A stretch of 64,000 nucleotides of DNA from Desulfovibrio fairfieldensis (GTDB lineage: Bacteria > Desulfobacterota > Desulfovibrionia > Desulfovibrionales > Desulfovibrionaceae), in assembly GCF_001553605.1 (NCBI RefSeq), contig NZ_CP014229.1:565001-629000 (forward strand), given 5' to 3'. This document shows, one piece after another, positions 11,538-36,365 of this stretch. The notes beneath the pieces are model-generated. The model was not told the origin of the DNA, searched no databases, and worked only from the letters and a program-made list of their open reading frames with translations. Within the stretch, counting starts at the first letter, position 1. Every line of letters begins with the position of its first letter. The translations under genes and the position numbers were made by a program.

Positions 11538-11562
11538 ATCTAAAGCAAGGCGATCCGCCTTG

Positions 11563-11625
11563 GAGCGGATTACCTTTGAGAAGGTGCCAGTTTTCGCAGC
11601 CGCCTTTTCAAAGTTATTTTGCTCT
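11563..11625. repeat. short derivative of dispersed repeat family A
   Basis: GAGCGGATTACCTTTGAG at 11563-11580 matches the left end of the family A copy at 36088, and TTTTCAAAGTT..TTGCTCT at the right resembles its right end, with the 200-bp middle missing. The right end touches the stop codon of the following minus-strand gene. Confidence 0.55.
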
Positions 11626-11953
11626 AATGGGTGTATTCCAACACCGGGAAATCGTCTCCCAGTTTGCGGCGGATGGCCGCCAACATCATGTCCCGGTTGG
11701 GACAGGGAAAGCCGATGGGGTTGCCCGTGGTGATACAGGAGGCCAGGGCCACGGCCTCGGCGCCCCGGTCGCGGAGCATCTGGGCACGCAGCACGGCGCG
11801 CTTGCCGGGACAGCCCCCGCAGGAAATGAAGCCCACCACCTCGCAGGCCCCCAGAGCTTCAAACGAGCCCTTGCCTTTGGCGGCCGTGACGAAGTCCGTG
11901 GTTCCGGGGCAGTAATCCTCTGTCTGCTGGCAACGAATAATGCCGACTTTCAT
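11624..11953 (-). CDS. CGGC-domain protein (putative metal binding)
   Basis: 109 aa; AGGAGG lies just upstream of the start at 11951-11953. The central CGGCPGKR motif (residue about 45) plus Cys8, Cys15 and further cysteines (ALASCITTGNPIGFPCPN) match the CGGC domain family, thought to bind metal through these cysteines. No signal peptide, so probably cytoplasmic. Lies 147 nt downstream of the MoeA-like fusion on the same strand and may be co-transcribed with it, which would link it to molybdenum or tungsten cofactor use; that link is inference. Confidence 0.7.
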   Translation of the reverse strand: MKVGIIRCQQTEDYCPGTTDFVTAAKGKGSFEALGACEVVGFISCGGCPGKRAVLRAQMLRDRGAEAVALASCITTGNPIGFPCPNRDMMLAAIRRKLGDDFPVLEYTH

Positions 11954-22620: not shown

Positions 22621-22766
22621 TTTGAAAAATTAGACATCCAAAACCTGTAGGGTTTTGCGGGGCGTAGCCGCCGTGGGTCAGTGAAAAACGCGGTTTTTCG
22701 CTGATGATCCTGCGAAAATTGAGAGCATGGCTATGCTCGAAATTTTTGTGATCAGAGACTAGAATA

Positions 22767-23039
22767 GATTACCTTTGAAATGCTTTGCGCTTCAAAGGGG
22801 ACATTCCGGAAAAAGCGCGGTTATCGCTGCTGTCGATCCCCGTATGGCTCCGTTGTCGCCAACGGGGACAGCCCTTCGGGCTGCCTTCGGTCGCTTTTCC
22901 GGAATCCACGCCGCGTTGCTCTCGATGCCTGTACGCCCTTTGGGCTACAGGCACGGCCCTACGGGCCGCCCGTCGGGTCGGTCTTCGCGGCGCGCCTCAC
23001 CGCGTTCGGCGTTAGAGCATTTCAAAGTTGAAATGCTCT
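22767..23039. repeat. dispersed repeat family A, copy 1 (~270 bp)
   Basis: Nearly identical to 36093-36362. Begins GATTACCTTTGAAA and ends in a hairpin, AGAGCATTTCAA-AG-TTGAAATGCTCT. Internal stems include CAGCC-CTTCG-GGCTG (a UUCG loop at about 22869-22883), GCCTGTA...TACAGGC and CGGCCC-TAC-GGGCCG. A one-base difference relative to copy 2 (CGCCAACGGGG versus CGCCAAACGGGG) changes reading frames, so it is not a conserved coding region. The 22621-22766 stretch before it has small hairpins only. Confidence 0.9.
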
Positions 23040-23144
23040 GGCCTGCGGAAGCACTGATTAGAGCCATTTTTCCTTGCTTTGTTGTACGCATTCCCGCCTC
23101 TCCGCTGGAGCCCCCGGCACAGAGGCACAACCCGGTTTATTCCC

Positions 23145-24149
23145 ATGAAAAAAGCACTATTTTTGTTCTGCTGCCTGTGCCTGGTCTTTGCTCTGGCGGC
23201 TTGCGGTTCCGACGACGACCAGAAAAGCGGCAGTGCCGCCGGACAAAGCGCGCCCGCCTCACCTGACGCCGTGCCGTCTTCGCCGGGGTCTGCCGCTTCC
23301 GCTCCCTCCGTTGTCCCCGCGCCCGTATCCCGGCCTCCGGCCACGCCTGAGGAAAAGAAGCAGGCCGACAGGATGGTGGCCTTTTACAATACCGCCGCCG
23401 GAGTGCTGGCCAGCGGCTGGTACGGCCAGCCCGACGCGTTGCTGACCAATGTGCGCGCCTATCTGGAAGACTGGCAGCTCGCGCCCCGGCCCGCCGTACG
23501 CGGCGCGCGCGGCGAAGCGGCCAAAGGCCTCGCGCCCGCCAAGGGGCTTTTTTCGGCTGAGGTGGAAGCGCATCTGGCTCAATGGGTCACGGACATGGAC
23601 AAGTCCCTGGACGCCATGCTGGCGGATTACAAGGCCCTGGAAAAATACGTGCGCGACGACAGCATCCGGGACGACGGAGCCCAGGGGAAAAAGCTGGCGG
23701 CAAGCCTGGGCGCGGCCCATGCGACCTTTATGGCCGCCCGCGACAGTTATCTGGAAGTTGTGGAGGCCCGGGCCGCGCAGGCCGAGGACGTGCTGCTGCG
23801 CGACCATCCGCTTCAACGGCAGATTGTGGCGGCTGAAAAGATTTTTTCCCTTTTCCGCAAGGCTGCCGGATTGCTCGGCCCGGAAAAGCCGGATAAGGAA
23901 GCCCTGGAGCAATTGCGTCAGGAGCTGGAATCCGCCATTGCCCTTGCCGGGCGGCCGCCTTTCCCGGCTTCGCCGGAACTGGAACGGGTTTACCGGGCCT
24001 TTCTCAAGGAAGCCGCGCTCTTTCCCCAGGGACTCGCGCGCGGTCTCTCCGAAGGCTTTTACAGCCCGTTGCGGCGCGATCTGAATAGTATCGTCGGTCG
24101 CAGCCGCGAGGCGTATAACGCCTTTGCGCGGGCGGCCAATCAGTCGTAG
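23145..24149 (+). CDS. exported lipoprotein, DUF3829/YiiG-like
   Basis: 334 aa. Start at the ATG 23145, directly before the signal peptide (MKKALFLFCCLCLVF..ALAAC), whose lipobox LAAC puts Cys20 or nearby as the lipidated residue. A Ser/Ala/Pro-rich linker (to about residue 65) leads to an all-helical domain. MVAFYNTAAGVLASGWYGQP and the long helices after it resemble DUF3829 lipoproteins such as YiiG; function unknown. No obvious SD sequence. The gene begins 105 nt after repeat A copy 1 and ends at its own terminator. Confidence 0.65.
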   Translation: MKKALFLFCCLCLVFALAACGSDDDQKSGSAAGQSAPASPDAVPSSPGSAASAPSVVPAPVSRPPATPEEKKQADRMVAFYNTAAGVLASGWYGQPDALLTNVRAYLEDWQLAPRPAVRGARGEAAKGLAPAKGLFSAEVEAHLAQWVTDMDKSLDAMLADYKALEKYVRDDSIRDDGAQGKKLAASLGAAHATFMAARDSYLEVVEARAAQAEDVLLRDHPLQRQIVAAEKIFSLFRKAAGLLGPEKPDKEALEQLRQELESAIALAGRPPFPASPELERVYRAFLKEAALFPQGLARGLSEGFYSPLRRDLNSIVGRSREAYNAFARAANQS

Positions 24150-24206
24150 CGCAAAATATTTTTGCAAAGCTCCGGCTTCCTTTCTCCGGAAAGCGGAGCA
24201 CCTCAT

Positions 24207-24247
24207 CCCGGCAACCGTCAAGACGCTGACAGTTGTCGGGATTTTTT
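24207..24247 (+). terminator. terminator after the lipoprotein gene
   Basis: CCCGGCAACCGTCA (24207-24220) pairs with TGACAGTTGTCGGG (24227-24240) with two mismatches, followed by ATTTTTT. Confidence 0.75.
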
Positions 24248-24391
24248 ATATCCAACCTATGAATAATTAAGATAAAAATATGCTTGGCAAGCTGTTTGCA
24301 AAAAGGAGAACGGAAAAGTTTTGCGTGTCCGGCCAGGTCCGGCAATTCAAGAGCGCCAAGTGCGCCGATTTCGCCAAGTTCGGAGGTCAGC

Positions 24392-24811
24392 ATGTTTTTT
24401 TTGCTGGGAGGCAATGACAAAAAAGCCCGCAAGGCTGAGAAACAGACGCGGGCGTCCGACGCCACCGCGCGCGTGCGTGACGTCTTTCTGGCCGGACGTT
24501 TTCCCGTGGTGACCACCCATCAGGTGGAGGGCCGCCGCATCGCCAAGGTGCTGGGCCTGGTCTGCTGCCGGGGCTATGACTCGGAAGAGGCCTTTTTCGG
24601 CATGGCGGGCCGGGCCATGAACAAAGGGGCCCAGGCCATTGTGGGCTATAATGAAAATGTGGCCTTTCATCCTGACGGCAGCAAATATTTCTCCTGCTTC
24701 GGTACGGCCGTCATGTTTGAATACGACCCGGCGGACCCGGATTCCCTGCCGCTCATGCTCCAGCAGAAATTCAGGGAGCGGGAGCAGCAGCCCAACAGCG
24801 ATATGATTTAA
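24392..24811 (+). CDS. YbjQ-like heavy-metal-binding-domain protein
   Basis: 139 aa; GGAGG at 24382-24386 sets the start at 24392. The C-terminal part (VTTHQVEGRRIAKVLGLVCC, then GAQAIVGYNENVAFHP) follows the YbjQ/UPF0145 pattern: a small beta-barrel protein that forms pentamers in solved structures, function unknown. The N-terminal 20 residues are charged (GGNDKKARKAEKQTRASD) and may be a linker. Monocistronic, terminator downstream. Confidence 0.65.
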   Translation: MFFLLGGNDKKARKAEKQTRASDATARVRDVFLAGRFPVVTTHQVEGRRIAKVLGLVCCRGYDSEEAFFGMAGRAMNKGAQAIVGYNENVAFHPDGSKYFSCFGTAVMFEYDPADPDSLPLMLQQKFREREQQPNSDMI

Positions 24812-24878
24812 CAACTTCTCCTCAGTCCGGCGCGGGCAGAGGAGAAAAATCCTCAGTGCGCAGCAAGGCGCCAATGTT

Positions 24879-24907
24879 AAAAAGCCGTCGATTACCGACG
24901 GCTTTTT
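24879..24907. terminator. bidirectional terminator
   Basis: AAAAAGCCGTCG / CGACGGCTTTTT with a 5-nt loop, between the YbjQ-like gene and convergent truA. Confidence 0.85.
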
Positions 24908-24912
24908 ATGTT

Positions 24913-25686
24913 TCAGACATATTCCACGCTGGCCAGCGCCAGCCCCCCGGCCGGGGCCGTGGCCGAGGGCACGGCCCGGCGGTCGCGGGCCGCCAGCAGG
25001 TCCGGCACGTTTTCAGGCCGGATTTTGCCCTGCCCGCAGGCCGCCAGCAACCCGGCCATATTGCGTACCATCTGCTTGAGAAAGCCGTTGGCCGTGACGG
25101 TCAGGCGCAGCCCGGGCGCGTGCGGAGGATAGAATTCGCAGGGCGGCGGGATGTCCAGTTCCGCCCGGAAAACGGTGCGCGTGGTGCTTTCCATGTCCGT
25201 GCCCGCGTTTTGCAGCCCGGCGAAATCGTGCTCGCCCAGCAGATGGGGCAGGGCCGCGCGCATGGCTTCCACATCCAGCGGGCCGCAGTTCCAGACAAAG
25301 GGGGCCAGTTGCGGCGGCACAAAGGCGCGTTCCTGCCAGAACTGGTACACGTAAGTTTTGCGCAGGGCATCCTTGCGGGCGTGAAAATCCGCCGCCGCGG
25401 GCTCGGCCGCCAGTATGCGGATTTCCGGCGGCAGCAGGGCATTGAGGCTGCGCTGCCAGCGCAACCCGGCCTTGGCGTCGGGGACATCGCAATGGGCTAC
25501 CTGGCCGTGGGCGTGCACGCCCGCGTCGGTGCGGCCTGAACCGTGCACCCGCACCGGCGCGCCGGCCAGCACGCGCAGGGCGGCTTCCAGCTCGCCCTGA
25601 ATAGTGGGCGGCGGCGACGGCTTTTCCTGGATCTGCCAGCCGCTGTAGCCGGTGCCCAGATAGGCCAGCAGCAGTTTCAGGCGCAT
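24913..25686 (-). CDS. truA: tRNA pseudouridine(38-40) synthase TruA
   Basis: 257 aa. Converts U38-U40 in the tRNA anticodon stem-loop to pseudouridine. The catalytic motif HGSGRTDAGVHAHGQVAH (Asp at about residue 53) is intact; YSGWQIQ near the N-terminus and FLKQMVRNMAG near the C-terminus are family signatures. Its start codon overlaps the stop of the upstream MotE-like gene (TGATG), so it is translated as the last gene of a fliJ / MotE-like / truA run, an odd partner for flagellar genes but common for housekeeping genes in compact operons. Confidence 0.95.
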   Translation of the reverse strand: MRLKLLLAYLGTGYSGWQIQEKPSPPPTIQGELEAALRVLAGAPVRVHGSGRTDAGVHAHGQVAHCDVPDAKAGLRWQRSLNALLPPEIRILAAEPAAADFHARKDALRKTYVYQFWQERAFVPPQLAPFVWNCGPLDVEAMRAALPHLLGEHDFAGLQNAGTDMESTTRTVFRAELDIPPPCEFYPPHAPGLRLTVTANGFLKQMVRNMAGLLAACGQGKIRPENVPDLLAARDRRAVPSATAPAGGLALASVEYV

Positions 25687-26990
25687 CAGTCCGGCAGCCT
25701 CATGCGGGTGATCAGTTCCGTGAACTTGGCGGTCTTGACCGGATTGGTATAGGTCAGGATTTCACCGGACTGCTTGGGAGCCATGCCCGAGAGAATCCGA
25801 ATGGCCACGCGCTCGTCCATGCTTTCCAGCGCCTTGGCCGCCGTCCGGGGCTTCATGTTGGCATACATCTGGATCAGATTGCGGATTTTTTTGTCTTCCA
25901 GGCCTTTGGCCTCGCGGATCATGTCCTTCATCTTCTGTTCGGCGTCCTGCAAATCTTTCAGGCGCTGGTCCATCTGCTGCCGGAGCATGAGAATATCCTG
26001 CTGCTGGCGGGCCAGGTCCTGGGCTTTATCGTTGGGATCGCCGGGGGGAGCGGTGGGCGTCACGCGGGGCGCGGGCGGCGGCAGGGTGGCGGGCTGTCCG
26101 TTTTGCGGCAGCGAGGGTAGGGCCGAGGAGGCTCCGGCGCTACGCGGAGGCAGGGGCGCGCCGTCGGTTCCCTGGCCGCGCGGAATATCGGCCGGAATGT
26201 CCGGCGCGCCGGGCATGGCCATGGGCGCGGTCTGTTCCGCCGGGGCAAAGGGGGACGACGCGGCCGGGGCTTGGGGCACAGGCATGTCCAGCGCGGCGGC
26301 GTGCGCGGCCTGAACGCTGCCGAGTCGCGGAATGGGCAGGCTTTTCAGGCCCAGTATGTCCAGAAGGCCGTCGTCGTGGCCGGGTTGTCTGACCGGTGCT
26401 GCGGCCAGCAGGGATACGGGATTTTCGGCCGGAGCCGGAGTGCCGGCCTCGGCCACGGGAGCGCCGAGAGGCGCGGGAGCGGGCAGTCTGGGCGGCGTGA
26501 AGGCGGCACTGTCCGCGTCAGGGACGCTGCGGACTTTGGCCGCCACCAGCGGTGCGGGAAGCGCGGATTCCGTGCCCGCCTGCTGCGCGTGCCGACGCGG
26601 CTTCGCAGCGGCGGCCAGTTGCGCGGCGGCGGAACCCTGCGGCATGTCGCCGCCGGGCAGCGCGTCTGTTTGAAGGTCTTGTCCGGAGGATGCGGCCGCA
26701 GCGGCCGCCGGGGCGCTTTTTCGCAGATTTTCCCGGGAATCCGGGTCGCGCGATGCCGTGGCCGCCGGGTTGACCGAGGCGACGGGGCCAGCCTCAGGCA
26801 CGGTTTCCCGCGTGGTTTTTTGAGTATCCAGCCGCGCCGCGTCATTCGGCACGCCGCCGAGCCAGACGGGCAGGGGCACGTCCAGCATGAGCATGCCCAG
26901 AATGGCAAGTTTGATAAAGCAAAGCACCGCCAGCCAGCGAAAGAGCCTAGAAAGACGGAGCCTTATAGCGGAGGGTCGCGATTTCGTCAT
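25686..26990 (-). CDS. MotE-like protein (MgtE-N-type domain, single membrane anchor)
   Basis: 434 aa. One N-terminal transmembrane segment (WLAVLCFIKLAILGMLML, residues about 19-36), then about 250 residues of Pro/Ala-rich low-complexity linker, a coiled coil (RQQQDILMLRQQMDQRLKDL), and a C-terminal MgtE-N-like module (MYANMKPRTAAKALESMDER..ILSGMAPKQSGEIL). This layout matches MotE-type proteins encoded next to fliJ, linked to flagellar motor or export function. GGAG lies 10 nt upstream of the start, which is inside fliJ (44-nt overlap). The long linker is unusual in size. Confidence 0.75.
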   Translation of the reverse strand: MTKSRPSAIRLRLSRLFRWLAVLCFIKLAILGMLMLDVPLPVWLGGVPNDAARLDTQKTTRETVPEAGPVASVNPAATASRDPDSRENLRKSAPAAAAAASSGQDLQTDALPGGDMPQGSAAAQLAAAAKPRRHAQQAGTESALPAPLVAAKVRSVPDADSAAFTPPRLPAPAPLGAPVAEAGTPAPAENPVSLLAAAPVRQPGHDDGLLDILGLKSLPIPRLGSVQAAHAAALDMPVPQAPAASSPFAPAEQTAPMAMPGAPDIPADIPRGQGTDGAPLPPRSAGASSALPSLPQNGQPATLPPPAPRVTPTAPPGDPNDKAQDLARQQQDILMLRQQMDQRLKDLQDAEQKMKDMIREAKGLEDKKIRNLIQMYANMKPRTAAKALESMDERVAIRILSGMAPKQSGEILTYTNPVKTAKFTELITRMRLPD

Positions 26991-27384
26991 TGAAGCGTTG
27001 CTCCTTCAACTGTTCTTCGCGGGCATGGTAGTGTTTCTGCCGTTCCTTGAGTTTTTCCAGCAGTTTTTTGTCTATGGCGCGGGCCGCCAGCAGATTTCTG
27101 GCTTCCTCCACCATCTGGGCCAGCATGCGCGCCTGGAGGGAGGCTGCGGCCACGTCGCCGCGCAGGCCCTTGACGTATTGTTCCAGCAGCCAGCGTTCAC
27201 CGGCTTCCATAAGAGCTTCGTTGCAGAGGCGGTCCTGGGCGCCCCGGAGTTCCGCCTGGAGCGCGTCCAGGCGTTCCCGGGCCTCCTGGAAGCGGCGCTG
27301 CGCCGTGGCCAGGCGCACTTTGGCCTCTTCTTCCAACTGCTCCCGGTAGTCGAGCACCTTCTGCATTTTGAAGCGAAACGGCAT
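26947..27384 (-). CDS. fliJ: flagellar export protein FliJ
   Basis: 145 aa, almost entirely coiled coil. The start at 27382-27384 follows GGCGGAG; an upstream in-frame start lacks a site. MPFRFKMQKVLDYREQLEEE is the typical FliJ N-terminus. FliJ is the cytoplasmic escort/stalk protein of the flagellar type III export ATPase FliI. The rest of the fliFGHI set is not adjacent: the upstream neighbour is thiD, so this is a detached pair of fliJ and the MotE-like gene. Confidence 0.85.
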   Translation of the reverse strand: MPFRFKMQKVLDYREQLEEEAKVRLATAQRRFQEARERLDALQAELRGAQDRLCNEALMEAGERWLLEQYVKGLRGDVAAASLQARMLAQMVEEARNLLAARAIDKKLLEKLKERQKHYHAREEQLKEQRFNDEIATLRYKAPSF

Positions 27385-27483
27385 GCAAACTCCGCCTTGT
27401 TTTTGACGCCTGTCCTGAACCGCCAAAGGGAATTGCAAACTGCGGGCCAAAAGGCGGAGCTGCCGCCTTGCGGCAGCTTCCGG

Positions 27484-28284
27484 TCAGACGTTCAGGGCCG
27501 CCGCGTGATTGACCGGGCCGCAGCCCTTGCCGGGGCTGTAGCTCTTGCGCAGAGCGAGATTGAGAAATTCCTGGGCCTTGGTCACGGCCACCCGCAGGGG
27601 CAGGCCCTTGCCCAGACCCGTGGCGATGGCCGCTGAAAGCGTGCAACCCGTGCCGTGGTTGTTGGCGGTCTCCACCTTGGCCTGGGGCAGAGCCTTGGGC
27701 GCTTCGCCGGGCAGACAGAGGCAATCCGTGACCACAATGGAGCTGTCCATGTGGCCGCCCTTGATCAGCACGGCCCTGGCCCCCATGTGGAGCAGCTTTT
27801 CGCCCGCCGCGAAGGCGTCCTCCACGTCGGCGATGCTGAGGCCGGTCAACATTTCGGCCTCGGGCCGGTTGGGCGTGAGCAGATCGCAGCCGGGCAGGAT
27901 TTCTTCTTTCAGAGCCGTCACCGCGTCCTCCTGCAACAGGCGGCTGCCGCTCTGGCTTACGGACACGGGGTCCACCACCAGGGGAAAGGCGCGGCGGCGC
28001 AGAATGGGGCTGATGGCGTGGATGATGCCCGCGGAAAACAGCATGCCGGTTTTGGCCGCGGCCACGGGAAAGCCTGCCAGCACGGTTTCGAGTTCCAGAG
28101 CCACGAATTCGGGCTCCGGCGCCTGGATGCCCGTGACGCCCAGGCCGTTCTGGGCCGTCAGGGCGGTGATGACGCTCATGCCGTAGCCGCCCAAGGCCAT
28201 GATGGTTTTCAGGTCGGCCTGGATGCCCGCGCCGCCGCCGGAGTCGGAACCGGCAATGGTCAGAATGTTAGGGGGGGTCGGCAT
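27484..28284 (-). CDS. thiD: hydroxymethylpyrimidine/phosphomethylpyrimidine kinase ThiD
   Basis: 266 aa. GGGAGTGCGT precedes the start at 28282-28284. Phosphorylates HMP and HMP-P for thiamine synthesis. Motifs: [21 protein letters not shown] at the N-terminus (substrate and phosphate binding), [35 protein letters not shown], and the anion-hole [14 protein letters not shown] (catalytic Cys about residue 215). Full length, all motifs intact. No TPP riboswitch was recognised upstream. Lies 99 nt ahead of fliJ on the same strand. Confidence 0.95.
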
Positions 28285-28334
28285 ACGCACTCCCGTTTCG
28301 GGTTGCAGATGTGATTGCGCCGTTTCCGGCGCTG

Positions 28335-28365
28335 AAAAAAAGGGCAGGGCGTCACAGCCCTGCCC
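28335..28365 (-). terminator. terminator on the minus strand, upstream of thiD
   Basis: GGGCAGGGC / GCCCTGCCC (28342-28350 and 28357-28365); reading the minus strand the stem is followed by a run of seven T. It would stop transcription coming from cstA, about 420 nt upstream, before thiD. Confidence 0.7.
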
Positions 28366-28394
28366 GGAGAGCGTTGACAGCGTCAACGCGACCA

Positions 28395-28558
28395 AAAATC
28401 AGGAGCAGGCCACGGCTTTGCCGTGCCGTTAGTTGCCCGAAGGGTGCCCGGCCGTGCCGGGCATTTCCCTTGATTTTTGCGCCTTACCGCCCGGCAAGTT
28501 TTTTTGAAACCGAGCCGATGGCGGAGCAAACACCGCGTAAGCGGAGTTTGTCATCAGT
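28395..28558. repeat. dispersed repeat family B, copy 1
   Basis: Shares an ordered set of blocks with 44207-44327 and, more loosely, 60824-60940: AAAATCAGGAGCAGG, GGCTTTGCCGTGCCGTTA, a TGATTTTTGCG(C/T) block, and GATGGCGGAGCAAACACCGC...GCGGAGTTTG. Non-coding; internal hairpins such as CACGGC-TTT-GCCGTG. Confidence 0.7.
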
Positions 28559-28634
28559 TGATCAATGCGTCCTGTCCGGAGGAATCTTTATAGCCCGCGC
28601 CGGACGGGCGCGCAATACGCGGCTGGACCGCCGG

Positions 28635-28756
28635 GAGCCGTTTCTAAATTGCCTTTTCGCCCTTTGTCTGCGTCCGGTTTGCCCCGTGCGAAGGTCGGGT
28701 TTGAATAAGCCCTTTCGCGGCAGAGAACGAAAATCCTTGATGTGGAAACAGCCCCC
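28635..28756. repeat. family C element, copy 2 (degenerate)
   Basis: Starts AGCCGTTTCTAAATTGCCTT and ends GTGGAAACAGCCCCC, matching the reverse complement and direct ends of the long inverted repeat at 21755-21903. The middle is diverged. Lies just after a family B copy. Confidence 0.55.
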
Positions 28757-28780
28757 GGGGCATTTCAACGCTGATCCGCT

Positions 28781-30217
28781 CTAGACGTTTTCAGGCGCGC
28801 CGTCCACGGTGCGGCGACCCAGCACCATAAAGGCCACAAAAGCCACGATGGCGGCGGCCACGCCGATGATGTTGGAGATGTCGATGCCCATGCCGAAGCC
28901 CATGGAAGGCTCAAAGCAGATATACGAGACGCAGACCGCGGTCATGAACACGGCGGGTATGGTGCAGATCCAGTGGCAGCGGTCCCGACGGACAAGGTAG
29001 GCCGCCCCGGCCCAGAGCACGATTGTCGCCAGGGACTGGTTGGCCCAGCCGAAGTAGCGCCAGATGATGTTGAAGTCCACCTGCGACAGGATAATGCCGA
29101 TCACGAACATGGGCACGGCGATGAGCAGGCGCGGGGAAATGGCCTTCTGGGAATAGTTAAAGGTTTCGGCGATGGTCAGACGCGCGGCGCGGAAGGCCGT
29201 GTCGCCCGAGGTGATGGGCAGCACCACCACGCCCAGGATGGCCAGGATGCCGCCCACGGTGCCCATCAGGGCGAAGGAGGATTCCGTCACCACGTTGCCG
29301 GGACCACCGGCGGCCAAGGCAGCGGCCAGAGCTTCGGGGCCGTGGTAGAAGCTCATGCCCACGGTGGCCCAGACCAGGCCGATAAAGCCTTCGGCCACCA
29401 TGCTGCCGTAAAACACGGGCTTGCCCAGCTTTTCATTGGCCATGCAGCGGGCCATGAGCGGAGACTGGGTGGCATGGAAGCCGGACAGCGCGCCGCAGGC
29501 AATGGTGATGAACACCAGCGGGAAGATGGGCAGGCCCTTGGGATTCTGGTTGGCCCACTGGGCGGAATTGTAAAATTCCGTGCCGCTGACGAACATCATC
29601 ACGGTGATGCCCACGGCCATGAAGATCAGGATGGCCCCGAAAATGGGATAGAAGCGGCCGATGATCTTGTCGATGGGCATAATGGTCGCCAAGAAGTAAT
29701 AGGCGAAGATCACGCAGACCCAGAAGGTGAGGTTCAGGGCGGAGGGGGTCAGCTTGGCCAGCAGGGCGGCCGGGGCGGCCACGAAGACCACGCCCACCAG
29801 GATGAGCAGCACCACGGCGAAGACGCGCATGATCTGTTTGGCGGCGCTGCCCAGGTTGTAGCCCACGAAGGTGGGCACGTTGGCCCCGCCGTAACGGATG
29901 GAAAGCATGCCCGACATATAGTCATGCACCGCGCCGGCGAAGATGGTGCCGATCACGATCCAGAGCAGGGCCGAAGGGCCCCACAGCGCGCCCAGAATGG
30001 GGCCGAACACCGGGCCCACGCCCGCGATGTTCAGCAACTGGACCAGCCAGACTTTCCAGACCGGCATTTCCACGTAGTCCACGCCGTCGGCATGGGTCTG
30101 GGCCGGGGTGGCGCGGCTCGGCTGCACGCCGAAGACTCTGGTGACAATGCCCCCGTAGATGATGTAGCCGACAATCAGCGCGGCCACAGCCAGAAGAAAA
30201 TAGACGTAGTTTGGCAT
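28781..30217 (-). CDS. carbon starvation protein CstA family transporter (short form)
   Basis: 478 aa, compared with about 700 for Escherichia coli CstA. GAGGGAGTT precedes the start at 30215-30217. Polytopic inner-membrane protein with about 12 hydrophobic segments. Signatures: VQLLNIAGVGPVFGPILGAL, GTIFAGAVHDYMSGMLSIRY, FHATQSPLMARCMANE. The family imports peptides or pyruvate by secondary transport; which one applies here is unknown. Repeat families B and C lie between this gene and the first clear terminator downstream. Confidence 0.88.
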   Translation of the reverse strand: MPNYVYFLLAVAALIVGYIIYGGIVTRVFGVQPSRATPAQTHADGVDYVEMPVWKVWLVQLLNIAGVGPVFGPILGALWGPSALLWIVIGTIFAGAVHDYMSGMLSIRYGGANVPTFVGYNLGSAAKQIMRVFAVVLLILVGVVFVAAPAALLAKLTPSALNLTFWVCVIFAYYFLATIMPIDKIIGRFYPIFGAILIFMAVGITVMMFVSGTEFYNSAQWANQNPKGLPIFPLVFITIACGALSGFHATQSPLMARCMANEKLGKPVFYGSMVAEGFIGLVWATVGMSFYHGPEALAAALAAGGPGNVVTESSFALMGTVGGILAILGVVVLPITSGDTAFRAARLTIAETFNYSQKAISPRLLIAVPMFVIGIILSQVDFNIIWRYFGWANQSLATIVLWAGAAYLVRRDRCHWICTIPAVFMTAVCVSYICFEPSMGFGMGIDISNIIGVAAAIVAFVAFMVLGRRTVDGAPENV

Positions 30218-30603
30218 AACTCCCTCTGTATGCAAAAATGAATGAGACACCCGAAAAAAACACCCGGCCATCGCGCGGATGCGTGATGGTATTGCCTCTC
30301 AAGTAACCATATGGCGTCCGTGCGTCAATACAAAGCGGGACCGGGAGTAAAAAGAAAAGTCTTGTCCGGCGCGGCCGGACGGGCCCCCCGAGGGGCGTCG
30401 CCGGTTTTTGCCGAAAGCCTCGGTTGCCGGGCCGGACAGAGGACGGGCGGGAGAATGCGTTTTCCTCAATATCTGAAATTAGATATTTCATGCGGCCGGA
30501 GCTTCAAGACAATGTCTAGAAAAAGTATTCACACCCGAAAAAAGCAATGATACCATGAAAACAGGGGAAAAGCGCTGCCGGAAGCGGCGGGCCGCGCCCC
30601 GTG

Positions 30604-30712
30604 CTTCCAATTTCAGATAAAAATTCAAGTACGTTTTATCTGCCATTGGAAGGCGCGACTGCGTTCGCGCTCCAGCCGACAGGTAAAAACGGCATGGGCG
30701 CAGTTTTTACCT
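30604..30712. repeat. two adjacent hairpins in a 500-nt intergenic region
   Basis: Stem 1: CTTCCAATTTCAGATAAAA (30604-30622) with TTTTATCTGCCATTGGAAG (30634-30652), two-base mismatch only. Stem 2: AGGTAAAAAC (30681-30690) with GTTTTTACCT (30703-30712). They sit between cstA and the next gene (30218-30736), a stretch with no coding region seen; the promoters of both divergent genes must lie here. Stem 2 ends 24 nt before the ATG at 30737 and could influence its translation. Confidence 0.6.
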
Positions 30713-30736
30713 GGAAATGGTCATGAGGAGATCTGC

Positions 30737-32149
30737 ATGAAATTGGAAAAGAAAACGCCCGAGGTTCCCGACATCATGAACCTCCCCAAACCCCGTCCCG
30801 GCAAGGGCGCGGGGCGCAAAGCCGGGCTGCTGGCCCTGGTGGCGGTGCTGGCCGTGGGCGGCGCGGCCTTCTGGCTGACCCGCGACCCCTCCACCCGCGA
30901 TCAGTGGCGGGAACAGGCCGCCGGCGTCATTGACAATGCCACCAGCGGCACGCCCCTGGCAGGGGTGGGCGATCTGCTGCGCGACGCTCCGCCGCCTCCG
31001 CCGAGCGCGGTGACCAATCCGAGCACCGCTCCGGGCACTCTGGCCGGGCGGAACGTGCAGGGCACGGTGCCCGCGCCGGTGGACACCAGCCTGCCGCCGG
31101 GACAGAGCGGGCTCGCCGGAAGCGGCGGAGCGCCGGGCATGGCAGGACAGGAGGCTGTGCAGCCCGTGGCTCCCAAGGTCACGGCGGACAGCAAGGTCCG
31201 TCCGGACTTTGTGGAGGATCTGGCCGCCTATCTGGTTTCCCGCTACAAACCCGGCCCGCGCGGCGGTTCGCTGGCGGTCAGCGTGCAGAGCGTCAACCAG
31301 CGCTACGGCGTCAAGCTGGCCGGGCAGGTCGAAGGGGGCCGGGCGGGCCTTCTGCGCTACGCCTTCCATCCCACCATGCTCCAGAGCCTGTACGCGCTCT
31401 ATGTGGACCGCTTCATGGCGGCTCTGGACCGCGAGGCGGCGGCCAAATCCCTGTCGCCGGAGCAGAACCGGGAGATGCACATGGCTCTGGCGGGCCGCTT
31501 CGTGATGCTGGCCGGCGCGCTGGAGGGCGTGGCCTCGGTGCCGGATCTGGGCAAGCGGATCAAGGGCCTGGAGCAGATTTCCCAGAACGTGGTGGACATC
31601 AATTCCCAGATGACGGCCGCGGTCTTTGATCTGGACCAGTTGCGCGAAAACAAGGCCTCCCAGCCCGAGATCGCCACGACGCAACTGCGGGTGGACGGTT
31701 TGAGCGCCCGCTACCGGCGCGCTCTTGAAGAGCGGGCGGCGGCGCAGCGCGCTCTGGTGGCGGCCATTCGCAAGGGCGGCGGACAGGCTCTGGACGACGA
31801 CTCCCTGCTGTTTGTGGCCTATTGGGTGGACCGGCGTTTGCGGGAAGGGCCGCAGGCTCCGGCTTCGGTGCAGAGCGCCGCCGCCGTGCTGCGGGATCTG
31901 GCCCGGCGTTGCGCTCAGGCCGGTGCCGCCGCGCCCGCCAATCGGGACAATCCGGCCGCGCAACCGGCTCTGTCCGCCCCGGCGGCCCCGGCCCGGAATA
32001 CCGCGCCCCAAACCACAGCGCCTCAAAATACGCTGCCCCGGAATACACAGCCGCAGGCCGGTACAAGGCTTCCGGCGGCCCCGGCTCCCGCGCCCGCACA
32101 GTCCTTGGCCGTGCCCGCGCCTGTTCAGGTGGGCGGCCAGGGCCGGTGA
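30737..32149 (+). CDS. hypothetical membrane-anchored protein, Pro/Ala-rich ends
   Basis: 470 aa; GAGGAG lies 8-13 nt before the ATG. Short cytoplasmic N-terminus, one transmembrane segment (AGLLALVAVLAVGGAAFWL, residues about 28-46), then a Pro/Gly-rich linker, a helical domain (VEDLAAYLVSRYKPGPRGGS to about residue 390) and a low-complexity C-terminal tail (PRNTAPQTTAPQNTLPRNTQ type repeats). I do not recognise the domain. The stop overlaps the GTG of cobU (GTGA), so the two are translationally coupled. Confidence 0.6.
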   Translation: MKLEKKTPEVPDIMNLPKPRPGKGAGRKAGLLALVAVLAVGGAAFWLTRDPSTRDQWREQAAGVIDNATSGTPLAGVGDLLRDAPPPPPSAVTNPSTAPGTLAGRNVQGTVPAPVDTSLPPGQSGLAGSGGAPGMAGQEAVQPVAPKVTADSKVRPDFVEDLAAYLVSRYKPGPRGGSLAVSVQSVNQRYGVKLAGQVEGGRAGLLRYAFHPTMLQSLYALYVDRFMAALDREAAAKSLSPEQNREMHMALAGRFVMLAGALEGVASVPDLGKRIKGLEQISQNVVDINSQMTAAVFDLDQLRENKASQPEIATTQLRVDGLSARYRRALEERAAAQRALVAAIRKGGGQALDDDSLLFVAYWVDRRLREGPQAPASVQSAAAVLRDLARRCAQAGAAAPANRDNPAAQPALSAPAAPARNTAPQTTAPQNTLPRNTQPQAGTRLPAAPAPAPAQSLAVPAPVQVGGQGR

Positions 32150-32715
32150 ACGCGCCGTTGCTTCTTTTTGTGGGCGGCACGCGCAGCGGCAAAAGCGGAC
32201 TGGCCCAGCGCTGGGCCGAGGCGCAGTCTCCCCGGCGTCTTTTTCTGGCGACCTGCCGGGTGGAGGATGCCGAAATGGCGGCCCGCGTGGCTCGGCATCA
32301 GGCCGCGCGCGGCGCGGGCTGGCACTGCGTGGAGGAGCCTCTGGACCCTTTGGCCGTGTTGGGCGGCTGCTCGGCCGGAAGCGCTTTTGGCGGGGCCGGA
32401 GTGGTTCTGCTGGATTGCGTGAGCCTCTGGATTGCCAATCTGCTGGCCGCCGGTCTGACGCCTGAGGCGGTTCAGGCGCGGGTGGCGGCCCTGGCCGCCG
32501 GCCTGGCTGAAAATGGATGCCGCGCCCGGCCCGTGGCCCTGGTCAGTGCGGAAACCGGCCTGGGCATTGTGCCGCCTACGCCCCTGGGGCGCTTGTACCG
32601 GGATGTGCTGGGTCTTGCCAATCAGACGCTGGCAAGGGCCTGCACCCATGTGATTTTTGTCAGTTGCGGGCTGCCCCTGGCGCTCAAAGGCCCGTTGCCG
32701 GAGGGCATATGCTGA
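32146..32715 (+). CDS. cobU: adenosylcobinamide kinase / adenosylcobinamide-phosphate guanylyltransferase CobU
   Basis: 189 aa, GTG start at 32146 overlapping the upstream stop. P-loop GGTRSGKS at residues 10-17; RVARHQAARGAGWHCVEEP carries the His that is guanylylated in CobU, and LLDCVSLWIANLL follows. VSAETGLGIVPPTPLGRLYRD matches the conserved VSNEVGxGIVP segment with Asn replaced by Ala. Acts in the nucleotide-loop assembly of cobalamin. It stands alone here; no other cob gene is near. The next gene starts inside its last codons (ATGCTGA). Confidence 0.9.
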   Translation: MNAPLLLFVGGTRSGKSGLAQRWAEAQSPRRLFLATCRVEDAEMAARVARHQAARGAGWHCVEEPLDPLAVLGGCSAGSAFGGAGVVLLDCVSLWIANLLAAGLTPEAVQARVAALAAGLAENGCRARPVALVSAETGLGIVPPTPLGRLYRDVLGLANQTLARACTHVIFVSCGLPLALKGPLPEGIC

Positions 32716-33392
32716 TTCCTGCTTCGTGCCGCAGGCTGGGCCTGCTCCCTTATATATTCTGTTGCCTGTTCTTGGGCTTGGGCCTCTTTTCGATGCTGTC
32801 GCCCTCATCGGCGCGGGCCGCGAATACGGCTGACCCGCGCCAATGCCTGGTGGAGGTGGGACAAGCCATTGACGCGGCGGATGCCGCCACCTTTGAACGC
32901 CTGGTGGATGTGGACGCCATTCTGGGCGCGGCCCTGACCCTTTTTCTGCGCGATGTGCAAAAGCCGGAGGTGGCTGATCAACTGCCGCCCCTGCTGGCCG
33001 TGATGTTTTCCCAGGCCGCCTCCGGGGACGCCGGGGGAAACAAACTGCGCGATCTGCTGTTCAGCGAGGCCCGTGCCTTTGTGATCAACGGCGTGTCCTC
33101 CGGGGCTTTTGCAGGACGCGCGCCCAGCGGCGGGAGCGCCCAAGGGATGCTGGCCCCGCTTTTTGCCGACGCCTCCACGGGCCGCAAGGAAATCCGGCGG
33201 ATCGGCCAGGCCAAGCCCGACGGCCACGGCTGGCTGGTGCCTTTTGTGGTGCATGACGCGGGCAACGCTGAAAGCTATCCGGTGCTCGGGCGGCTTAGTC
33301 CGGTGGAAAACGGCTTCCGCCTGACTTCCGTGGAGAACCTGGAAGAGCTGCTGGGCCGCGTGCGCGCCGAAAGCCTGAATCTGAGCCAATAG
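32709..33392 (+). CDS. hypothetical exported protein
   Basis: 227 aa. The ATG at 32709 overlaps the cobU stop, with GGAGG just upstream (about 32698-32703). The N-terminus is a signal peptide (ILFGLGLFSMLSPSSARA-type, cleavage after about residue 37, ARAANTA). The mature part is a small alpha/beta domain (VEVGQAIDAADAATFERLVD, VFVINGVSS...). I do not recognise a named family; the layout resembles periplasmic proteins of unknown function in this genus. Last gene of the coupled trio around cobU. Confidence 0.6.
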   Translation: MLIPASCRRLGLLPYIFCCLFLGLGLFSMLSPSSARAANTADPRQCLVEVGQAIDAADAATFERLVDVDAILGAALTLFLRDVQKPEVADQLPPLLAVMFSQAASGDAGGNKLRDLLFSEARAFVINGVSSGAFAGRAPSGGSAQGMLAPLFADASTGRKEIRRIGQAKPDGHGWLVPFVVHDAGNAESYPVLGRLSPVENGFRLTSVENLEELLGRVRAESLNLSQ

Positions 33393-33518
33393 AGCGTTTT
33401 GATATTGAAAATATCTCAGCGCTCGGTGCGGATTTTCTGTGAAAATCCGCACCGCGAAATTATCGCAAGGCGAATTTACTTCGCCGTTAAGCGATAATTT
33501 CAAGCGCAAAATGCTCTA
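33390..33518. repeat. nested palindromic intergenic element
   Basis: Outer arms TAGAGCGTTTTG / CAAAATGCTCTA, enclosing GGTGCGGATTTTC-TGT-GAAAATCCGCACC (perfect), GAAATTATCGC / GCGATAATTTC, and GGCGAA..TTCGCC. The left arm includes the stop codon of the preceding gene. It can fold as a branched RNA, or serve as a terminator for both flanking genes. The AGAGC..GCTCT ends recall those of family A. Confidence 0.75.
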
Positions 33519-33600
33519 ACAGGCGCGTCCGCCGGATTTGCAGGGCGCGGCGCCGGACCCGCGCCATTGCCTTGCGGGAATCGCGCGAAAGCGGGCGGCA

Positions 33601-34467
33601 TCAGATATCAATCTGCAACCAGGCGCGGGCCCCCCAGCCGATGAGGAAGGAAATGAGGGCCACGCTGAAGCTGATGGTCAGCATTTCCCGGAATCCGTGC
33701 AGAAAAGAGGATTTGCGCACCACGGAAACAAAATAGGTGAAGCCCAGAATAATCAGGGCGGCGATCAGCAGGCAGAAGGCCAGGGACACAAGCGGCGCGG
33801 AAAAGATGATATACGGGGCGAGCAGCAGGGCCACGGTAAAAAGGTAGGCCAGGCCGGTATACACGGCCGCTTTCAGCGGATGTTTCTCGCCGGAATCCGT
33901 TTTCTTGGAAAGATATTCAGAGGCCGCCATGGACAAGGTGGCGGCGACGCCGGTGATAAAACCGGCCAGGCCGATCATTTTGTTGTCGTTCAGCGCCAGA
34001 GTGAAACCGGCCAGCGCGCCTGTCAGTTCCACCAGGGCGTCATTGAGCCCCAGAACCATGGAGCTGATATAACTGAGGCCGTCCTCTTCAATCATGGCGG
34101 CCAGTTCCTCTTCATGCCGGCTTTCATCCTCAAGTATTTTCCGGGCAATGGGGAATTGCTCGGAAATCGCCTTGTATTCTTCAATGGCCTTGGCTTCTCC
34201 CGATTCCATCAGGTTGAGGACAAAGGTCAGGCCGAAAATTTTTGCCAGAAGCGTAAAAAACCAGACTCGGAACGCATTGAGTTTGGGGAGATTATCTAAA
34301 TAGGAAGCCCACTGGGCTTTGTGTTTTCTCTCGTCATGCGCAATGGCCTCCAGAATCTTGCGATTATGCTCAGATTTGGTTTTTTTCGCCAGGATCGCGT
34401 AAACCTCGGCGTCCAGAGCCTCATCGAGATAAAAGTTATGTACGTAACGTTTCATTTCCGGGGTCAT
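33601..34467 (-). CDS. ferritin-like / VIT1-CCC1 membrane iron-manganese transporter
   Basis: 288 aa. GTGGAG precedes the start at 34465-34467. Residues about 1-140 are a ferritin-like four-helix domain (DEALDAEVYAILAKKTKSEH, AIAHDERKHKAQW, LEDESRHEEELAA supply Glu/His ligands for a di-iron site). Residues about 145-288 are VIT1/CCC1-like with five hydrophobic segments (VLGLNDALVELTGALAGFT, ITGVAATLSMAASEYLSKK). This is the layout of membrane-bound ferritin MbfA, an iron exporter protecting from peroxide in other bacteria. Role here: iron or manganese efflux or storage, by family inference. Confidence 0.87.
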   Translation of the reverse strand: MTPEMKRYVHNFYLDEALDAEVYAILAKKTKSEHNRKILEAIAHDERKHKAQWASYLDNLPKLNAFRVWFFTLLAKIFGLTFVLNLMESGEAKAIEEYKAISEQFPIARKILEDESRHEEELAAMIEEDGLSYISSMVLGLNDALVELTGALAGFTLALNDNKMIGLAGFITGVAATLSMAASEYLSKKTDSGEKHPLKAAVYTGLAYLFTVALLLAPYIIFSAPLVSLAFCLLIAALIILGFTYFVSVVRKSSFLHGFREMLTISFSVALISFLIGWGARAWLQIDI

Positions 34468-34672
34468 AGTCAACTCCACAGTAAAAGTGCAATATAATGC
34501 AATGCGAGCCTGCAAAACAGGAAGCGCCGGCTTCATGTCCGGCGGTGGAAAGAATGTTTTCCGCATTGCGGCATGTCTGGTCCGCCCGCGCGGCAGGGAC
34601 AAGAGCGCGGGCCTGCAAAGCGGGCTTGTTTTTCCTGATATATCACGAAAATATCCCGCTTGGCGAGTTTCC

Positions 34673-35935
34673 CTAGAGGGCGTGGCGCTGAGTTGCTTTG
34701 TCCCTCCAGATCATGCGCATCCTGTCTATCAGCATGCAGCAGCCGCAGAGAGAGATGGTGACGGCGGTGGCGGTGAACACGCCGCGATACCCGTAGCCCG
34801 CGTGGATGACCAGGCCGCCCAGCAGCGGGCCCAGCATGCCGCTGGCGTCAAAGGTCGCCATCATTACATTGGAGTTGATGGAGCGGGTGGTGGGCGTGGA
34901 GCGGTCGTACACGGCGGCGGCCAGCAGGGGGTAGAGCAGGCCCAGGCCCAGGCCGTAGACGCAGGTGAGGGGAATGAAGGCCCAAAGCGGCCCCCAGGCC
35001 AGGCCCAGCATGCAGCAGGCCAGCACCGCGCAGCAGAGCGTGGTCACGCGGTAGCGGGGCAAGGTATCCAGGCGGTGGCTGCCGAACAGCCGGACCAGAA
35101 TGATGGTCACCGTGTAAATGGAGAAAAACCAGGCCGGTTGCGCGCCGGTGACCGAGCAGAGCCCCTTCATGAAGAAGATGGCCAGCACGGTCATGATGCT
35201 GAAGGTCAGACAGGCCATGTAGATGAAAAACAGGCCTGAATGGCTCACGGCCTGCCAGAGAGCCCGGCCTGAAAGGCTGCCCGCGCCTTGGGCGGGCATT
35301 TCCGGCGTCCGCAGGCGCGGGGCCAGGGGAATCAGCATGGCCAGGGCGGGCAGGCCAAGCACGGCGGTGAAGGCGAAGAGATGCGGTTCGCCGCCCAGAA
35401 TGGGCAGGATACGCTCGGACAGGGCCGGAATGATCGAATAGGGCAGCAGCATGGTCAGGGAGAACAGGGCAAAGCCCCTGGCGCTCTGGCCCGTGGGGAT
35501 GCAGCTGACCAGCACGGCCACCGTGCAGCTGGAATATACGGCCAGGGCAATGCCCTGGATGGTGCGCAGCAGCCAGATGATGCCGATGACATGCTCTCCC
35601 TGAACGTAGGGATAGGCCAGCAGGACGCAGCTGGAAACGATGATGGACAGCAGCATGGGCAGCAGCTTGCCGCGCTTGAGCAACAGCACGCTTGCCAGGG
35701 GACGGCAGAGCAGGACCATGGCGAAGAGGGAGGAAAGCAGCACGCCGCGCCAGTTGGGGGTGATGCTGAGACCTTCCAGCCATTGCTCGAAGCAGTAGAA
35801 CACGGCGATGTAGCTGTTGCTGCACATAGCCATGCAGAAGAGCAGGATAAAGTCGCGGCTTAAGAGTTTTTGCGGCGGTTCGGAAGGTTTGTCCCAACGC
35901 TTGGGCTGTTCTTGCGGTCCACTGAAGGGGGGCAT
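34673..35935 (-). CDS. major facilitator superfamily transporter
   Basis: 420 aa, about 12 predicted transmembrane segments. The start at 35933-35935 (MPPFSGPQEQ) is chosen because the longer frame adds a non-membrane Arg/Gly-rich leader. The MFS loop after helix 2 is degenerate (LCRPLASVLLLKRGKLLPML). TRSINSNVMMATFDASGMLGP and LGGLVIHAGYGYRGVF in the C-terminal half are reminiscent of drug or metabolite efflux MFS members. Substrate not evident. Single gene; the family A repeat lies directly upstream. Confidence 0.8.
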   Translation of the reverse strand: MPPFSGPQEQPKRWDKPSEPPQKLLSRDFILLFCMAMCSNSYIAVFYCFEQWLEGLSITPNWRGVLLSSLFAMVLLCRPLASVLLLKRGKLLPMLLSIIVSSCVLLAYPYVQGEHVIGIIWLLRTIQGIALAVYSSCTVAVLVSCIPTGQSARGFALFSLTMLLPYSIIPALSERILPILGGEPHLFAFTAVLGLPALAMLIPLAPRLRTPEMPAQGAGSLSGRALWQAVSHSGLFFIYMACLTFSIMTVLAIFFMKGLCSVTGAQPAWFFSIYTVTIILVRLFGSHRLDTLPRYRVTTLCCAVLACCMLGLAWGPLWAFIPLTCVYGLGLGLLYPLLAAAVYDRSTPTTRSINSNVMMATFDASGMLGPLLGGLVIHAGYGYRGVFTATAVTISLCGCCMLIDRMRMIWRDKATQRHAL

Positions 35936-36092
35936 GAGGGCCTCGTTTATCTTGGGCGTTGCCCACAACGGACGCGCGCCGTCGCGGAAGCCCGCGCACC
36001 CATGGAACGTCGCGCGCAGGCAACTGCCGCGCAACCTTTGAGAATGTCAATTTTCAAAGGAATCTGCTCCGGCAAAATCCGCTCTGAGAGCG

Positions 36093-36362
36093 GATTACCT
36101 TTGAAACGCTTTGCGTTTCAAAGGGTTCATTCCGCCAAAAAGCGCGGTTATCGCTGCTGTCGATCCCCGTATGGCCCCGTTGTCGCCAAACGGGGACAGC
36201 CCTTCGGGCTGCCTTCGGTCGCTTTTCCGGAATCCACGCCGCGTTGCTCTCGATGCCTGTACGCCCTTTGGGCTACAGGCACGGCCCTACGGGCCGCCCG
36301 TCGGGTCGGTCTTCGCGGCGCGCCTCACCGTGTTCGGCGTTAGAGCATTTCAAAGTTGAAAT
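36093..36362. repeat. dispersed repeat family A, copy 2 (~270 bp)
   Basis: Same orientation and nearly identical to 22767-23039. It is preceded by the palindrome CCGCTCTGAGAGCGG (36079-36093) and ends AGAGCATTTCAAAGTTGAAAT, three bases from the stop codon of the PEP-synthase-like gene. The same internal hairpins, including CAGCC-CTTCG-GGCTG, are present. In this copy the 3' hairpin is imperfect (..GAAATACGCT). Confidence 0.9.
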
Positions 36363-36365
36363 ACG

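Follow-up and report, generated by a model that had tools for sequence, protein, structure and literature searches.

The genome of Desulfovibrio fairfieldensis forms one contig of 3,699,310 bp, and the 64,000 nucleotides between its positions 565001 and 629000 (the window) contain two near-identical repeats of about 270 bp. The question raised by this locus is what these repeats are and how they reached their positions. A first reading made from the letters of the DNA (the sequence-only reading) suggested that they are either a non-coding RNA with conserved stems or a mobile element of miniature size. The second half of this suggestion agrees with the results, since the repeats carry terminal inverted repeats (TIRs) and flanking TA dinucleotides, occur in high copy number, and have ends that match those of an IS630-family insertion sequence in a sister species. 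The repeats are very probably miniature inverted-repeat transposable elements (MITEs) of the IS630 type, with loop modules that resemble those of BOX repeats.

The two copies are 97% identical over about 270 aligned bp, with few substitutions and two 1-base indels, which confirms the near identity reported at first; with the flanking TA included, the ends lie slightly further out than had been thought (Table 1). Their common orientation and their spacing of 13 kb in the window are what one would expect of a segmental duplication or of an assembly error that had produced two copies, and the sequence-only reading had tied a simple duplication to the finding of only two copies. The probability of this explanation is negligible, because the element occurs, whole or partial, in at least 40 places of the genome on both strands, with pieces 76–98% identical to copy 1. 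This count is a lower bound, as 40 of 155 first-look candidates, partial copies included, were scored, and a second listing, in which 40 of 138 candidates were scored, likewise gives a lower bound.

One or both inner parts are missing from many copies, and size classes with common ends can be distinguished: palindromes of 48 bp, cores of ~140 bp, forms of ~200 bp with one inner part, and forms of ~270–280 bp. The end pattern has 246 matches in the D. fairfieldensis genome at up to three mismatches, compared with one for the reversed control. At up to two mismatches, there are 149 end sites in this genome and 263 and 202 in two sister species (G002 and G017, respectively), with none for the controls in all three. 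The TIRs are present but imperfect (TAGAGCRGATT..CTTTGAAA and TAGAGCANTTTCA..TTGAAAT), and TA is found at both ends in most of 30 natural cores. The absence of a transposase gene, the high copy number, and the length of under ~300 bp are those of a MITE. The placement of 30 D. fairfieldensis copies, based on simple codon-usage gene calls, shows none within a called gene; in tandem settings, 10 are sense and 10 antisense, while five copies are convergent, three are divergent, and two are incomplete.

The conserved structure noted in the first reading has been confirmed by folding and by covariation. The copies fold far better than shuffled sequences (z of -6.7 on the plus and -7.2 on the minus strand, with 0 of 200 shuffles as good on each strand), and five hairpins in a row make up the basic unit of 140 bp. 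The core alignment comprises 30 sequences of ~140 bp, 13 from D. fairfieldensis, 8 from G002, and 9 from G017, with L128 left out because its left end was not found. Across these three species, 92.4% of the cells in the 46 pairs of the five hairpins are paired compared with 36–45% when the structure is slid, and both sides have changed in 105 cells compared with 5–28 in the controls. Since the structure string was drawn from one D. fairfieldensis copy, which favours the true register over the slid ones, the both-side changes are the stronger part of this result. Four of five measures lie above shuffles, the exception being further pair types (38 versus 40.1). Helix 4 is paired in only 71% of cases because eight G002 rows, which were kept in the alignment, are out of register.

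Comparison with the short forms shows that the 270-bp form contains two copies of one structured module of ~72 nt, one in the loop of hairpin 2 and the other in that of hairpin 3. The two modules, A and B, are alignable end to end. As the first model (R1) included module B, the homology was retested with a model built without B (R2), which detects B at an E value of 1.4e-11. The stems of the module covary as well, with 92.3% of cells paired compared with 28–46% when slid and 31 both-side cells compared with 1–8. The UUCG tetraloop described by the sequence-only reading is not supported, because the best pairing of CAGCCCTTCGGGCTG is a stem of 6 bp closed by a loop of three bases, and the covariation is in that register (module helix 3).

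The module is not restricted to this element. At least 89 matches have been found in the D. fairfieldensis genome by scoring 150 of 4277 candidates, 60 of them in the 40 places and 29 elsewhere; the R1 matches give two modules in 21 places, one in 18, and none in one. Some of the modules outside the 40 places lie within other TAGAGC-ended elements (e.g., at 118769, in L109), and two, in L323 and L324, are by eye enclosed by the arms GGCGCTTTTTGC and GCAAAAAGYGCC. Of 199 genomes sampled across the class, 32 have the module at E 1e-4, which is again a lower bound (24 candidates per genome). All 32 belong to the family of the window's genome, 19 to the same genus (D. fairfieldensis included) and 13 to other genera. 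In relatives, the module is found within hairpins of other kinds and in tandem arrays with as many as eight units, as in L191, a near-perfect tandem of eight 73-bp units with 99% matches. The flanks pair around the module in 22 of 54 distinct loci of relatives (z < -3) compared with 3 of 229 control places, and the remaining 32 did not pass, so that loop placement in relatives is a tendency and not a rule. The presence or absence of the module is independent of the ends, and its tandem arrays in relatives are like those of boxB in BOX. A bolder proposal, which we hold only tentatively and think rather doubtful, is that the ~72-nt module is a distinct genetic element of a single bacterial family, able to enter the loops of palindromic repeats that are unrelated to one another, to be carried along by whatever moves these, and to multiply there in tandem.

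Strong folding and covariation in both the frame and the module could also belong to a structured RNA, either regulatory or small, whose usefulness would account for its dispersal and whose functional domains would be the two modules. The arrangement in relatives points the same way: of 51 loci with a call, 38 have the module in sense orientation after the upstream gene, and convergent settings outnumber divergent ones by 18 to two (59 loci in total, some near-duplicate). On the other hand, G-T and A-C mismatches are about equally frequent (frame, 33:28; module, 11:8), so that no strand is clearly favoured; the target of constraint or repair would be either the DNA of the inverted repeat or an RNA from one or the other strand. 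The tandem placements are equally divided in D. fairfieldensis and are 15 sense and 10 antisense in relatives. Rfam, which the first reading had named as a check, has no family over the copies above the gathering score; it detects only rRNA elsewhere in the window, and its best weak match over copy 1 has 16.2 bits. No promoter-like or terminator-like site was found wholly inside either copy; one sigma-70-like site, at 22737-22765, overlaps the left end of copy 1. We therefore consider such an RNA unlikely. The structured-RNA half of the first description holds in that the structure is real and covaries, but a discrete small-RNA gene is unsupported by Rfam, by an internal promoter or terminator, or by a strand or orientation preference. 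A role of the sense strand as RNA finds no support in the mismatch counts or in the equally divided D. fairfieldensis orientations. If the hairpins act at all, they are likely inert 3'-UTR structures.

For the miniature element, the source of movement is suggested by sister species. In ten genomes searched for the IS630 transposase (PF13358), G002 has nine matches, G003 has eleven that are mostly short or broken, and seven other relatives have none. Locus L281 of G002 (1031-2028) is an element of ~998 bp with two overlapping frames; the IS630 transposase model (NF033545) matches the larger frame above its curated cut-off and the smaller one below it. When the ends of the L281 element are compared with the closest short-element end of G002, 18 of 19 positions are identical at the left and 14 of 19 at the right; against the commoner G002 version, the left end agrees at 17 of 19 (by eye). 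A further end of the same kind is located at position 922 of this locus. Experiments have shown that elements of the IS630 family insert into TA, which is duplicated (PMC2170065). The flanks, the IS630 match, and the evidence at gene ends given below suggest that insertion into TA would also apply here, and an IS630-type transposase probably spread the copies and would then have been lost from the D. fairfieldensis genome. In small samples picked from match lists, the mean core identity is 97.4% in G002 (n = 8), 91.4% in G017 (n = 9), and 80.3% in D. fairfieldensis (n = 13). The near-identical short elements of G002 fit an enzyme still at work there, though G017 is also without a PF13358 match.

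Another possible mobiliser is a Y1 (RAYT-like) transposase acting on palindromes of the repetitive extragenic palindrome (REP) or bacterial interspersed mosaic element (BIME) type. Such repeats share the high copy number, intergenic placement, mosaic build, and richness in hairpins, and the genome has 13 Y1 transposase matches. However, 11 of the 13 represent one IS200-like element and a near variant of it, and the other two a second such element. Inspection of boundaries and sequences together with a BLAST of copy 1 revealed no Y1 element whose own ends are these, and a copy of the repeat contains one IS200 insertion (L024 / L035, G000:C1:1634179 region). With its TA flanks and IS630-like ends, the Desulfovibrio element is more in keeping with a DDE element. 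This origin is very improbable, and Y1/IS200 was rejected as the mobiliser because the ends mismatch.

The boundary between element and gene provides further evidence for the IS630-type reading. At the D. fairfieldensis loci, 21 of 159 ends are met by an open coding frame, and in 19 of these 21 the frame stops at a TAG formed by TA and the G of the element (p 8e-8), although the 19 include several ends that are weak or of another type (L019, L024, L098:2462, L102, L129:513). The remaining two are not in frame: L115 has its TAG one base further on at a mutated end, and L100:2511, a weak match, may not be an end at all. An A or a G follows the far TA in each of the 12 cases that could be read by eye (p 2e-4), 10 of 22 having been left out because the far end was not intact or unambiguous. 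This is as if a TAA or TAG codon had been split by the insertion. When the element lands in the TA of such a stop codon, its first base, G, would rebuild TAG, and the gene would survive.

Copy 2 is an example of this junction. The first reading had placed both copies in the same orientation between unrelated genes, and this agrees with the absence of copies from called genes, but copy 2 overlaps the stop codon of its neighbour. Homologues of this neighbouring gene, 67–83% identical, are found in 8 of 19 relatives. Seven of the eight are readable (G012 was not read), and all seven end in FLNGEYH directly before the stop codon, as in D. fairfieldensis; the stop is TAA in four, TAG in two, and TGA in one. 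The TAG of the G002 homologue runs into a TAGAGC end, which suggests that the site was hit twice or long ago. BOX is reported to supply the stop codon in 36 of 58 overlapping coding sequences without strong evidence of truncation (PMC3049150). The supply of stop codons at gene ends is thus a habit shared with BOX and is not new.

Several observations weigh against an IS630-type MITE. No PF13358 match is found in the D. fairfieldensis genome, so that its copies look like orphans, and there is none in G017 despite its 202 end sites and its 91.4% similar cores. The D. fairfieldensis ends agree with those of the G002 insertion sequence at only about 15–17 of 19 positions (by eye). The 12 readable far ends include seven with intact TA and five with TG or CA, and the TA duplication is proposed from the flanks. 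The search for other transposase families covered only PF01797 and PF01609, with the PF01609 loci (G000/G002/G017) listed only. The modules are GC-rich (0.67–0.71), where AT-richness is a typical, though not strictly required, feature of MITEs. Finally, the compensatory change exceeds what a passive MITE needs, and repair of quasi-palindromes or selection would have to account for it.

No description of these Desulfovibrio repeats was found among the open-access papers searched. By analogy, the element may work like the pneumococcal repeat unit of pneumococcus (RUP) combined with BOX repeats. RUP, the partner of IS630-Spn1, is a non-autonomous intergenic element of ~100 bp with IS630-like ends and TA targets (PMC2229807, PMC3049150). 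It differs from the Desulfovibrio element in its ends and host and in being a simple 107-bp unit without loop modules, and the insertion sequence of the Desulfovibrio element has been found only in sister species. The streptococcal BOX has end modules that frame a variable, tandem central module, and in S. suis one core module is combined with different end types (PMC3049150). The Desulfovibrio module differs in that it sits in the loops of defined hairpins, with at most two per element, and also in unrelated hairpins. The comparison with BOX is an analogy of architecture and does not extend to the sequences of boxA, boxB, or boxC.

The Correia elements (NEMIS) are bounded by TIRs and flanked by TA. 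The sequence they share with the Desulfovibrio element is presumably only a GGATTAAC-like stretch, and they differ from it in having no loop modules. They form hairpins, and they have been classed as MITEs (PMC10969869). REP/BIME and enterobacterial repetitive intergenic consensus (ERIC) repeats are also intergenic palindromic mosaics, and the insertion of REP dimers into palindromes has been reported (PMC3733652). They differ in that no Y1 gene has been seen with the ends of the Desulfovibrio element.

Table 1. Parts of the two repeat copies and the gene that abuts copy 2 (positions within the window)
Feature	Position	Strand	Remarks
Copy 1 of the 270-bp element	22760..23040	+	TA to TA; right TA reads TG
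Copy 1, left TIR	22760..22798	+	TAGAATAGATTACCTTTGAAA; continues into hairpin 1 (22772-22798)
Copy 1, hairpin 2	22803..22905	+	ATTCCGGAA (22803-22811) pairs with TTCCGGAAT (22897-22905); loop holds module A
Copy 1, module A	22823..22894	+	~72-nt structured loop module
Copy 1, hairpin 3	22909..22992	+	CGCCGC (22909-22914) pairs with GCGGCG (22987-22992); loop holds module B
Copy 1, module B	22912..22983	+	Homologue of A; model match; insert relative to short form, 22915-22983
Copy 1, hairpin 4	22993..23011	+	Imperfect in copy 1
Copy 1, right TIR	23013..23040	+	Hairpin 5
Copy 2 of the 270-bp element	36086..36368	+	Right end supplies the stop codon of gene 36366-38933 (-)
Copy 2, module A	36150..36222	+	
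Copy 2, module B	36240..36311	+	
Copy 2, right TIR	36341..36368	+	Hairpin 5
Gene with PPDK_N and PEP-utilizers domains	36366..38933	-	Labelled PEP-synthase-like; TAG stop formed by TA and the terminal G of the element

A short hairpin that carries a T-run precedes copy 1 directly, at 22723-22738 (the terminator scan found two sites, with 1.1 expected), and a palindrome, GAAAATTGAGAGCAT/ATGCTCGAAATTTT, within 22700-22760 and likewise next to this copy on its upstream side, scored as terminator-like. The window also contains an element of ~129 bp with TAGAGC ends and the inner palindrome GGTGCGGATTTTC...GAAAATCCGCACC (33390-33518), a type that is also present beside L003, L004, L005, and L070, and a 66-bp element with the TIR-like ends TGGAGCGGATTACCTTTGA / TAGAGCAAAATAACTTTGA (11561-11626). 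Another type, which has TAGAGC ends but differs in its inner part (GCTGACGCTGCCTTCAGCC...GCGGCCGCCAAGGC), has been observed at L091, L101, L104, L106, and L110. A second MITE-like repeat, TA-flanked and with GGGYCTGTTAACRCTATAG ends, lies beside or within copies of the element at L028, L017, L019, L077, L084, and L089; it bears the arms GGTCGAGTACC...GAGTACACTCCC, which are also found in G007 (L054) and G017 (L186). A third TA-flanked repeat, with GGRGCTGTTTCTAAAT ends, adjoins copies at L092 and L071. In G017, a G-rich hairpin (GTGGGGGAGGGACCCT...) holds the 140-bp core at a TA within its loop at L048, L056, L069, and L181-L184, and the same hairpin occurs without the core at L062, L185, and L186.

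If the proposed reading is true, an IS630-type miniature element that rebuilds the stop codon on landing would explain how such a repeat could fill a compact genome without breaking genes. A covarying module found in the loops of different palindromes across one bacterial family would provide a clean system for the question of how BOX-like repeats gain and multiply their middle parts. In each genome, annotators would be able to name dozens of intergenic stretches that have so far had no explanation.

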